Positions 49,369 to 53,488 of a stretch of DNA of 64,000 nt are shown here, piece after piece. Each line of letters starts with the position of its first letter. Within the stretch, counting starts at the first letter, position 1. The notes below the pieces were generated by a model that was not told where the DNA came from, did no database searches, and saw nothing but the letters and a program-made list of their open reading frames with translations. The DNA is from Desulfoglaeba alkanexedens ALDC (GTDB lineage Bacteria > Desulfobacterota > Syntrophobacteria > Syntrophobacterales > DSM-9756): the NCBI RefSeq assembly GCF_005377625.1, contig NZ_CP040098.1:558001-622000 (forward strand). The letters are read 5' to 3'. The translations under genes were made by a program, and so were the position numbers.

Positions 49369-51222
49369 GTGTCGCGAAGAGAAATCCTTTTGGGAAACGA
49401 AGCCATCGCACACGGCCTGCTGGAAGCGGGCTGCACGCTGGCCGCTTCCTATCCGGGAACACCGGCTTCGGAAATCATGGGCGCCCTGATCCAGTTGAAG
49501 AAGCGATACGGGCTTTCCTGTCATCTGGAATGGTCGATCAACGAAAAGGTGGCTTTTGAGGTGGCGCTCGCCAACAGCTACGCGGGCCGGCGTTCAGCGG
49601 TGAGCATGAAGCAGGTGGGGTTGAACGTGGCGGCGGACCCTTTTTTGAGCGCCGTCTACACCGGTGTGAAAGGCGGTTTGCTGGTCATCGCGGCTGACGA
49701 CCCCGGCCCCCACAGCTCCCAAACCGAACAGGACAGCCGCCTTTTCGCTCATTTCGCAAAGGCGCCGGTCCTGGACCCTTCGTCACCGGAAGAAGCGGGG
49801 AACTGGATCGGCGCGGCTTTCGAGCTTTCGGAACGGCACGAAATTCCCGTGGTGCTGCGACCCACCACGCGGATCTGCCATGGAAGGCAGGATTTGGAGA
49901 CACGTCCTCTTGTGGAGGTCGCTTCCGCGCCGCTTTTTGAAAAGGACCCCGCACGCTGGGCCGCCACGCCCAAGTTTCGCTACCGGCTGCACGAGGAACT
50001 GAACCGAAAGATCGCGGCCATTGCCGACGATGAGGCTTTCGCCCCGAAACTCCTGAACCCGGACGCTCTCGAGGGCCGAGAGCGGGCGGGCGGGACCGGC
50101 CGGGACTGCCTGGTGGCCTCCGGGGTCGCCCTGGCACACGCAACGGAAATTCTTCAGGATCTCGGACTCTGGAATCGACTGCCGTGCTACCAGGTCCCCA
50201 TGCCCTATCCGTTGTCGCACCGCTTTCGGGACGAGCTTTTCCGAACCTGCGACCGCGTGCTTGTCCTGGAAGAAACGGAACCGGTGATCGAACTTCAGCT
50301 GCAGAACCGGAAGAAGGTTCTGGGAAGAACGAACGGAACGGTTCCCTCGGCGGGGGAACTGCTCCCCGAGACGATCGAAGCGATCCTCCGGGATTTTGCC
50401 GGCCTGCCGCAAATCGGGGGAGTGCAAGGGTCGGTAGGGGCTGGGAGACGCCCGACCCTATGCGCCGGTTGTCCGCATCGAGCGGCCTTTTTCGCCATCA
50501 AGAAAGCGTTCCCGCGGGGCATCTATCCTGGCGACATCGGCTGCTACACGCTGGGGCTGAATCTGGGGGCCGTGGATACGGTGCTTTGCATGGGAGCGGC
50601 GGTCAGCATGGCGGCGGGTTTCTACCACGCCTACCGCAACGCTGGCGGGAAACCTCGGCCCATCGCGGCGACCATCGGGGATTCCACCTTTTTCCATGCC
50701 GGCATTCCGGCGCTTGTCAACGCCGTGGTTCAGGACGCCCGGTTCGTCCTCGTGGTGTTGGACAACAGCACCACCGCCATGACGGGCCACCAGCCGACCC
50801 CGGCGGCGGGACGCACCCTGGACGGGAAACCGGTTCCAGCCGTTTCCATCGAGGAACTGGCGCGGGCCTGCGGCGTGCGGCACGTGACGGTAGGCGACCC
50901 GTACCGCTTCGACCATTTCGTGGAGCTTTTGAAGGACGCAGGGGCGCACACCCAGGGAGACCAGGGCGGCGTCGCCGTGGTCATCGCCAGGCGCCCCTGC
51001 CTCATGGACCGCTCTCACCCGCGGGACTGGGAACGACGCTCCGTGATCGTGAACGAAAAATGCGAAGGCTGCGCCTTCTGCATCAAACACTTCGAATGTC
51101 CAGCACTGGAACTCCAGGGCGAGGGTCAGCCGATCCGGATCAATGCCAGCCTGTGTTCGGGTTGCGGCGTGTGCGTGCACGTCTGCCCTCACGGGGCTCT
51201 CCAACTGGAACCCCGCAAATGA
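49369..51222 (+). CDS. iorA: Indolepyruvate:ferredoxin oxidoreductase alpha subunit
   Basis: A 617-residue enzyme that oxidatively decarboxylates aryl-pyruvates to acyl-CoA, reducing ferredoxin. An N-terminal pyruvate-binding domain has YPGTPASEI and DDPGPHSSQTEQD. The TPP domain has CAGCPHRAAFF, GDIGCYTLG, GDSTFFHAGIPALVNAV and DNSTTAMTGHQP. The C-terminal ferredoxin domain carries CEGCAFCIKHFECPA and CSGCGVCVHVCP for two [4Fe-4S] clusters. The GTG start has GGAG 8 bases upstream. The beta subunit follows. Confidence 0.95.
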   Translation: MSRREILLGNEAIAHGLLEAGCTLAASYPGTPASEIMGALIQLKKRYGLSCHLEWSINEKVAFEVALANSYAGRRSAVSMKQVGLNVAADPFLSAVYTGVKGGLLVIAADDPGPHSSQTEQDSRLFAHFAKAPVLDPSSPEEAGNWIGAAFELSERHEIPVVLRPTTRICHGRQDLETRPLVEVASAPLFEKDPARWAATPKFRYRLHEELNRKIAAIADDEAFAPKLLNPDALEGRERAGGTGRDCLVASGVALAHATEILQDLGLWNRLPCYQVPMPYPLSHRFRDELFRTCDRVLVLEETEPVIELQLQNRKKVLGRTNGTVPSAGELLPETIEAILRDFAGLPQIGGVQGSVGAGRRPTLCAGCPHRAAFFAIKKAFPRGIYPGDIGCYTLGLNLGAVDTVLCMGAAVSMAAGFYHAYRNAGGKPRPIAATIGDSTFFHAGIPALVNAVVQDARFVLVVLDNSTTAMTGHQPTPAAGRTLDGKPVPAVSIEELARACGVRHVTVGDPYRFDHFVELLKDAGAHTQGDQGGVAVVIARRPCLMDRSHPRDWERRSVIVNEKCEGCAFCIKHFECPALELQGEGQPIRINASLCSGCGVCVHVCPHGALQLEPRK

Positions 51223-51267
51223 CGGTCCGGCGCGCCGACGTCCACTTTTTCCATCGAGGAACAACGG

Positions 51268-51873
51268 ATGAGACAACAGATCGCAGTCAGCGGCCTCGGA
51301 GGGCAAGGCGTCCTCTTCGTCACGAGAATTCTGGCGGAAACCGCGCTCCACAAGGGCCTTTCCGTTCTGGTGTCTGAAACCCACGGCATGGCCCAGCGAG
51401 GCGGAAACGTCATCAGCCACCTCAAGGTGAGCCCTCGACGGGTTCGTGGCGATTTGGACACCGGGGGGCCGAAAAACGAGGAAGAACGCCCCTTCACCAG
51501 CCCGCTCATCCGTTCGGGGAGCGCGGACATCATCCTGGTGCTCCACCCGGACGGGCTCCCCGTACACGGGCACTACCTCTCCCCCAAAGGCAGCCTGCTG
51601 CTGAACGTTTCCCCCGCCCGCAAGCCCGGCGAACTGGAGGCCACGGCCATCGCATCGGCCTTGGGGTCCCCCGTATCCGCAAACCTGGTCCTTCTGGGGT
51701 TCGGAGCCGGAAGGGGAAGCCTGTTTTGCACTTGGGAAGAAGTGCGTGACACCGTGGAGCAACTGGGCGGTTCGCGCCTGGAGGTCAACCTTCGGGCCCT
51801 GGAAGCCGGCCGCCGGGCCGCCCTCGAGCGGCGCGGCACCCCTACGCGAAAAACGGACACTCAATCTCAGTAA
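51268..51873 (+). CDS. iorB: Indolepyruvate:ferredoxin oxidoreductase beta subunit
   Basis: A 201-residue gamma/beta-domain protein: IAVSGLGGQGVLFVTRILAETAL, SETHGMAQRGGNVISHLKV and GSADIILVLHPDG. It completes the iorA complex, 45 bases downstream of it. Its stop lies within repeat family E. Confidence 0.93.
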   Translation: MRQQIAVSGLGGQGVLFVTRILAETALHKGLSVLVSETHGMAQRGGNVISHLKVSPRRVRGDLDTGGPKNEEERPFTSPLIRSGSADIILVLHPDGLPVHGHYLSPKGSLLLNVSPARKPGELEATAIASALGSPVSANLVLLGFGAGRGSLFCTWEEVRDTVEQLGGSRLEVNLRALEAGRRAALERRGTPTRKTDTQSQ

Positions 51874-51899
51874 GGTGAAGGGTATTCTCAGGCAGCCTC
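51842..51899. repeat. Dispersed repeat family E, copy 3
   Basis: CTACGCGAAAAACGGACACT leads into AGGTGAAGGGTATTCTCAGG. It spans the stop codons of two convergent genes, iorB (51871-51873) and the flavoprotein gene (51899-51901). Confidence 0.6.
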
Positions 51900-53260
51900 T
51901 AAAGCTTTTTCTTGAGCTCCCGTGCGGCGATGATGACCGGGTCCCAGAGCGGCGAGAACGGCGGCGCATAGCTCAAATCCAGGTCTTCCACCTGGTCCAC
52001 GGTCAGTCCCGCATGGAGGGCCGTGGCCACGATATCGATCCGCTTGGCGGCCCCTTCGCATCCGACGATCTGGCCGCCGAGCAGCCGGCGGCTTCCCTTT
52101 TCTCCGATAAGCTTCACGAAGATGGTGCCGGCCCCCGGGTAGTAACCGGCCCGGGTGCGGCTCTCGATCCTTTCGGTGACGTAGTCCCATCCGACCGCTT
52201 GGATCTCCTTTTCCATGAGCCCGGTTCGAGCGACTTCCACCGCGCAGATCTTGGTGACCGCGGTCCCCACCACCCCGTTGAAGGTTTCGTTGCCGCCGGC
52301 CATGTTCGCCCCCGCCACCCGTCCATGCCGGTTCGCCACGGTGCCCAGCGCCACATAGAAGGGCTTCTGGGTCACCACGTGGAAGGATTCGGCGCAGTCG
52401 CCTGCAGCCCAGATGCCGTTCACGGCGGTTTCCATGCGCCGGTCGACGCGCACGGCCCCCCGTTCTCCCAGTGGAATGCCCGCATCCGAAGCCAAGCCGG
52501 TGTTGGGCCGCACGCCCATACCGAGGATCACCAGGTCCGCACCCAGGCGTCGCTTGTCGGTGACGACGGCGACTACGGAACCGCCGGCGGTTTCGAACGC
52601 CTCCAGCGACTCCTCCAGGTAGAGCCCCGCCCCCTGGTTTCGCAGCGATTGGGAGACCAGAGACCCCATGTCGGGATCCAGGGTTCCCATGACCTGTTCG
52701 GCCCTTTCGACCACCGCCGTTTCGATGCCCCGAAGCAGCAGCGCTTCGGCCATTTCCAGCCCGATGTAGCCTCCGCCGACGATGACCGCCCGCTTGGGAC
52801 GGCGTTCATCGATGAAACGACGCACCCGGATGCCGCTCTGGAGGGTGTGGACGCCGAAAATCCCCTCCGCCCCGGCGCCTGGAACGTTCGGGCAGATGGG
52901 GACGGCTCCCGTGGCAATGAGCAGCTGGTCGAAGGGTTCCCACCAAGGGGCGTTGTCCGCATCCACGCGGTGGACTTCGACCCGCCGGGCCTTGGTGTCG
53001 ATGGCCGTCACTTCATGGAGCACCCGCACATCGATGTTCTGTTTCTCTCTGAACTCCAAGGGCGTACGAACGATCAGCGCCTTTTCGTCGTCGACAATCC
53101 TGCCGACGTAGTAGGGAATCCCTCAGGCGGAAAAAGACGTGTGAGGCGTTCGTTCGAAGACGACGATCTCCGTCTCCGGCCGCTCACGTCGAAGCACCGA
53201 CGCGGCGGTCATCCCCGCCGCGTCACCTCCGATCACGATGACTCGTTCCTTGGATTTCAT
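51899..53260 (-). CDS. CoA-disulfide reductase / NADH oxidase-like flavoprotein with probable selenocysteine at residue 46
   Basis: A 453-residue pyridine nucleotide-disulfide oxidoreductase interrupted only by an in-frame TGA at 53123-53125. The N-terminal FAD motif VIVIGGDAAGMTAASVLRRE leads to FERTPHTSFSA, then TGA, then GIPYYVGRIVDDEKALIVRT. In CoA-disulfide reductases and NADH oxidases this position is the catalytic Cys (SACGIPY). The NAD motif VIVGGGYIGLEMAEALLLRG, AAGDCAE and the dimerisation domain follow without breaks. The TGA thus replaces exactly the active-site Cys, as in selenoproteins. The ATG at 53260 has GGGAG 6 bases upstream. A nonsense mutation is the alternative. Confidence 0.85.
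53089..53125 (-). promoter_or_regulatory. Candidate bacterial SECIS hairpin after the TGA codon
   Basis: Fourteen bases after the TGA, CGTCG (53104-53108) pairs with CGACG (53089-53093) around a 10-base loop starting with G. The spacing and the early loop G resemble the published bacterial SECIS pattern. Only five stem pairs are seen by eye. Confidence 0.5.
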
Positions 53261-53488
53261 CGGTCGCTCCCGTTCCACGCATGTGAGGTTAGCGTACCCT
53301 GCCATTGCCTTTCGTATTGATTCATTATGCCCTCCAAGGCGGAAGAATTCCACCTCGCCGACGAAACCGTGGCGATTCATACGCTGCAGGCTCGCTCAAT
53401 CCGCTCGCTTTCGACATCCCGCATATTTCTCCTTGACAGGTTTCCAAACTGGATTTCTAATGCGTTCCTGCATTGTTTTTGGAACGAA

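Follow-up and report, generated by a model that had tools for sequence, protein, structure and literature searches.

A probable selenocysteine-containing flavoprotein of the CoA-disulfide reductase kind in Desulfoglaeba alkanexedens

A stretch of 64,000 nt from Desulfoglaeba alkanexedens ALDC (contig NZ_CP040098.1, positions 558,001 to 622,000; hereafter the window) carries on its minus strand a flavoprotein gene whose frame is interrupted by a single TGA, which raises the question of whether the gene is broken or the codon is read as selenocysteine (Sec). The gene occupies 51899..53260 (minus strand), from the ATG at 53260 to the last base of TAA at 51899, and a Shine-Dalgarno-like GGGAG can be read from the sequence at 53267..53271 (minus strand), 6 nt 5' of the ATG. 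With TGA read as one residue, translation of 53260-51899 gives a 453-residue FAD/NAD(P)H pyridine nucleotide-disulfide oxidoreductase of the CoA-disulfide reductase (CoADR) kind, in which U46 of SFSAUGIPYYVG (53123..53125, minus strand) is the sole non-standard codon. This agrees with the sequence-only reading, in which a 453-codon flavoprotein is broken only by TGA at codon 46. The two claims that went with it, that the TGA stands at the redox Cys position of the family and that the motifs are whole on either side, also held: relatives have Cys there, the codon aligns with the catalytic Cys42 of Bacillus anthracis CoADR, and the Pfam domains Pyr_redox_2, Pyr_redox and Pyr_redox_dim cover both sides of the TGA. 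The protein stops after the dimerisation domain. The long plus-strand reading frame at 51746-53320 was rejected as an antisense artefact of the same gene. We put at about 95% the probability that the gene encodes a selenoprotein with Sec at residue 46, predicted to be a flavin enzyme of the CoADR/persulfide/polysulfide reductase group.

The proposed check of aligning homologues around residue 46 revealed a Cys/Sec exchange. Within the order, 10 of 10 orthologues have UGA as the single stop and at the same codon. Among 118 relatives collected by order and phylum searches, codon 46 is UGA in 60 and Cys in 58, and no stop was found elsewhere in the aligned gene. Geobacteraceae orthologues add 8 Sec and 10 Cys genes and the named MAGs 2 more Sec homologues, which brings the UGA-bearing homologues examined to 70 (60 + 8 + 2), with UGA at codon 46 in 70/70. 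In all of them this UGA is the one stop in the aligned gene, so the placement is not due to chance, as had been argued from the improbability of a random nonsense mutation at that very codon. The dN/dS ratio 3' of the UGA is about 0.08-0.17 in five close pairs, and the coding sequence downstream of the UGA is, by this sequence measure, under purifying selection.

Downstream of the UGA we found a bSECIS hairpin within the coding sequence (53089..53108, minus strand), a feature that the earlier reading did not mention. It has the form CGUCGGCA-GGAU-UGUCGACG, with an 8 bp stem and a 4-nt apical loop, GGAU, that starts with GG. The loop lies 22 nt downstream of the UGA, and the 48-nt segment that contains the hairpin folds at -15.4 kcal/mol. 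The bSECIS model specifies a loop of 3-9 nt, an upper stem of 4-16 bp, a G among the first two loop positions, a distance of 16-37 nt from the UGA and an MFE <= -7.5 (PMC13188914), and the window hairpin falls within every one of these limits as quoted there. When the encoded peptide is recoded at random with synonymous codons, such a structure seldom arises (p = 0.003). The same test gives p < 0.05 for 45/60 Sec and 0/58 Cys genes, 15/60 Sec hairpins failing individually. All Sec sequences (60/60) have G in the first two loop positions, and a stem of at least 7 bp is present in 57/60 Sec versus 7/58 Cys genes (Mann-Whitney p about 1e-19). Two-sided changes indicative of covariation occur at stem pairs 18-37, 19-36 and 25-30; 97.9% of cells are paired in this check, and sliding the partner abolishes the signal. 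In clade 1 of the gene tree, at least 6 of the 8 stem pairs are Watson-Crick in 29/29 Sec genes, versus at most 5 in the Cys genes. A direct comparison is offered by L241 (Sec) and L235 (Cys), which encode the same 15-residue peptide, GIPYYVGRVVDAEEK, and in which synonymous differences weaken the stem of the Cys gene. Elsewhere, in one family of the phylum, the Sec gene L132 has a 7-bp hairpin, GGGGAGC-GGTCG-GCTCCC, of which its Cys sisters L124 and L145 retain the 5-bp core; this trio may represent a stage in SECIS gain or loss.

The other check that had been proposed, a search for selA, selB, selD and tRNA-Sec, returned all four. Profile searches of the single-contig 3.37 Mb genome gave SelA at 532 bits, SelB at 379 bits (above cut-off), tRNA-Sec at 75 bits (gathering score 47), and SelD at 380 bits, so that the genome holds the complete set of SelA, SelB, SelD and tRNA-Sec. 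The SelD gene (409171-410097 of the contig) has its own in-frame UGA, in VAGAGUASKIGPG. SelA was found in 91% of the phylum sample, and its presence therefore fails to separate Sec from Cys genomes. In two nearly complete genomes, G106 and G302, SelA was not found at E <= 0.001 alongside a Sec homologue, SelB and tRNA-Sec; since SelB and tRNA-Sec are kept there, loss in assembly or by the model is the likelier cause. The Sec homologues of these two genomes belong to another subgroup than the window gene.

Apart from the stop codon that the frame does carry, nothing speaks for a nonsense mutation, a pseudogene or a sequencing error at codon 46: the UGA position common to 70 homologous genes already refutes that explanation, the low dN/dS 3' of the UGA, the covarying hairpin and the full Sec machinery stand against it as well, and we give it almost no weight. 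The UGA might be decoded in some other way, by near-cognate suppression, by insertion of Trp or Cys or through a change of the code, and from sequence alone the inserted residue cannot be told. Against this, the UGA is coupled to a SECIS-like hairpin that is weaker where the codon is Cys, the genome's other homologues from the families searched are free of internal stops except for the expected UGA of SelD, and the Sec machinery is complete; we consider such decoding very improbable. What the sequence shows is where the UGA lies and that it is conserved, together with the hairpin, the Sec machinery of the genome, the predicted fold and the active-site residues.

What does the enzyme act on? 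The best NCBIfam match of the protein is TIGR03385 (CoA-disulfide reductase), with E 1e-137. The score of 459.6 bits misses the equivalog cut-off of 578.8 bits, and the exact activity is therefore not assigned. PDB relatives found by sequence are CoA-disulfide and persulfide reductases. An AlphaFold model (pLDDT 84.5) matches the NADH-dependent CoADR 6ruz with a Foldseek TM of 0.92; the two proteins are 42% identical in the structural alignment and have their single catalytic residue in the same place, Cys in 6ruz and Sec in the window protein. B. anthracis CoADR (3cgb), likewise a Cys enzyme, is 36% identical in structural alignment, and its Cys42, Tyr367 and Tyr425 correspond to Sec46, Tyr373 (52142..52144, minus strand) and Tyr431 (51968..51970, minus strand). 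Neither tyrosine varies among 12 Sec orthologues, and Tyr367 and Tyr425 of CoADR have catalytic roles known for the class. The A. fulgidus (6pfz) and S. loihica (3nta) proteins share a homologous FAD/NAD core. Npsr has a C-terminal rhodanese domain, whereas a Pfam search found none in the window protein. The likeness to CoA-disulfide reductase proposed in the sequence-only reading is borne out by the fold, Sec46 and both tyrosines, but not as far as a TIGR03385 assignment or an established substrate. The product probably belongs to the CoA-disulfide/CoA-persulfide/polysulfide reductase group, and its likely substrate is a CoA-linked disulfide, persulfide or polysulfide.

A selenoprotein acting as NADH oxidase or peroxidase, which would detoxify O2 or peroxide in an anaerobe and would not act on CoA-disulfide, persulfide or polysulfide, has to be weighed. 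Selenols are suited to peroxide reduction, and the folds are close: comparison with LbNOX and with NADH peroxidase gives a TM of about 0.9. The FAD motif of NADH oxidases and peroxidases contains His10. The window protein has Ala14 at this place, aligned with Ala10 of B. anthracis CoADR, and it retains both CoADR tyrosines. Its best sequence and structure matches are CoADR and persulfide reductases, at 35-42% identity versus about 27% for oxidases and peroxidases. The Sec form was indeed first predicted in 2006 under the name 'NADH oxidase', in Geobacter metallireducens (PMC1794560). Taken together, we regard an oxidase or peroxidase activity as unlikely.

A stronger contender is a dedicated reductase of persulfide/polysulfide or of another low-molecular-weight (di)sulfide or selenium compound, for which CoA-disulfide would not be the substrate in vivo. 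The missed TIGR03385 cut-off is in keeping with this, P. horikoshii CoADR and A. fulgidus Npsr favour per- and polysulfides (PMC7969121), and the genome has two rhodanese-bearing Cys relatives. These paralogues, near 1618440 and 2319476 of the contig, are of the Npsr type, with the rhodanese domains at the C-terminus. The window gene, by contrast, lacks a rhodanese domain and has no sulfur genes beside it. Downstream and convergent with it are indolepyruvate-ferredoxin-oxidoreductase-like genes (49369-51870, plus strand), whose subunits are a TPP enzyme with a ferredoxin domain and a POR gamma-like protein; upstream are the NIF3, Zn-ribbon and PRPP synthetase genes, a side that is kept in four relatives, where the other flank is dnaG and rpoD. 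No sulfur or CoA genes were found among the neighbours, which are housekeeping genes and therefore give no functional hint. We hold this narrower specificity to be a serious though tentative option.

For a Sec enzyme of the CoADR/persulfide/polysulfide reductase group, the following course can be proposed. SelB with Sec-tRNA-Sec would bind the bSECIS hairpin, and the ribosome would put selenocysteine at residue 46 rather than terminate. The product would be a homodimeric FAD enzyme, in which electrons would pass from NAD(P)H to FAD and on to the selenyl centre at residue 46, by analogy with the Cys relatives; the general mechanism of the CoADR/persulfide reductase class has been summarised (PMC7969121). 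In its oxidised form the selenyl centre may be Se-S(n), or may be joined to CoA or to a substrate thiol as a mixed selenide-sulfide. The selenolate would then attack a disulfide, persulfide or polysulfide, with assistance from the partner subunit through its Tyr373 and Tyr431. The use of Se over S might bring a kinetic benefit to the enzyme.

The Sec form has been seen before. After the 2006 prediction it occurred once in the GOS data (PMC2398784), and the 2022 and 2026 inventories list it as 'FAD-dependent oxidoreductase (CoA-disulfide reductase), UGxP, predicted with high confidence' (PMC9312934, PMC13188914). Like the window gene, the published family is of the TIGR03385 type with a single Sec at the catalytic Cys; its representative WP_011365774.1 was compared by description only, and its Geobacter member comes from the same phylum but another family. 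The UGxP motif (PMC13188914 Table 1) takes the form UGIP in the window protein, and Sec orthologues in Geobacteraceae are 64-68% identical to it. In a search mostly without subscription literature, no papers were found on the biochemistry of Sec CoADR, the breadth of its distribution or multiple SECIS registers. We concluded that the window gene is a well-supported further member of an already predicted kind of selenoprotein; because that kind was predicted in 2006, it is not something unknown.

In trees of this family the Cys/Sec state changes several times. On the tree of 118 relatives it needs 9 changes, 5 of them forced by well-supported branches, and a careful tree of the window clade and outgroups needs 5 changes, 3 of them forced. 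Cys members nested within clade 1 include Trichlorobacter thiogenes and Flavobacterium. The Geobacteraceae Cys genes L235, L237 and L242 retain a weaker hairpin, which indicates Sec-to-Cys reversion. Outside clade 1, the distance from the UGA to the hairpin loop is 18, 20, 21 or 26-27 nt. These other registers suggest separate SECIS origins, with register drift as a possible alternative. At least five changes of state in the phylum, together with the different registers, suggest repeated recruitment of selenocysteine, possibly new.

Two further groups of Sec genes were observed in these searches. Six genomes of the same order encode a Sec flavoprotein subfamily, about 29-30% identical, with the UGA in the same column, the motif EFFIVR-U-ALPHVVAG and a hairpin 22 nt after the UGA; its best NCBIfam match is TIGR03385, far under the cut-off. 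Beyond UGxP, the genes L087, L088, L116, L121 and L125 and their relatives have the Sec motifs UDLP, UETP, USEP, ULMP and UPTP, with the hairpin 18 nt after the UGA. We think it somewhat probable that in Thermodesulfobacteriota this catalytic position switched between Cys and Sec many times, with new SECIS elements in registers of 18, 20, 21, 22 or 26-27 nt within the conserved post-active-site peptide, and that the VR-U-ALPH subfamily and the motifs UETP, UELP, USEP, ULMP and UPTP extend the published family.

Standard annotation would split the window gene or call it a pseudogene; read with Sec, it probably encodes a functional redox enzyme, alongside the two Cys relatives of the same genome. 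The group offers many natural Cys/Sec orthologue pairs of about 65% identity, some with a half-decayed SECIS, and through these pairs both the gain from selenium in CoA-disulfide/persulfide reduction and the birth and decay of SECIS elements are directly testable.
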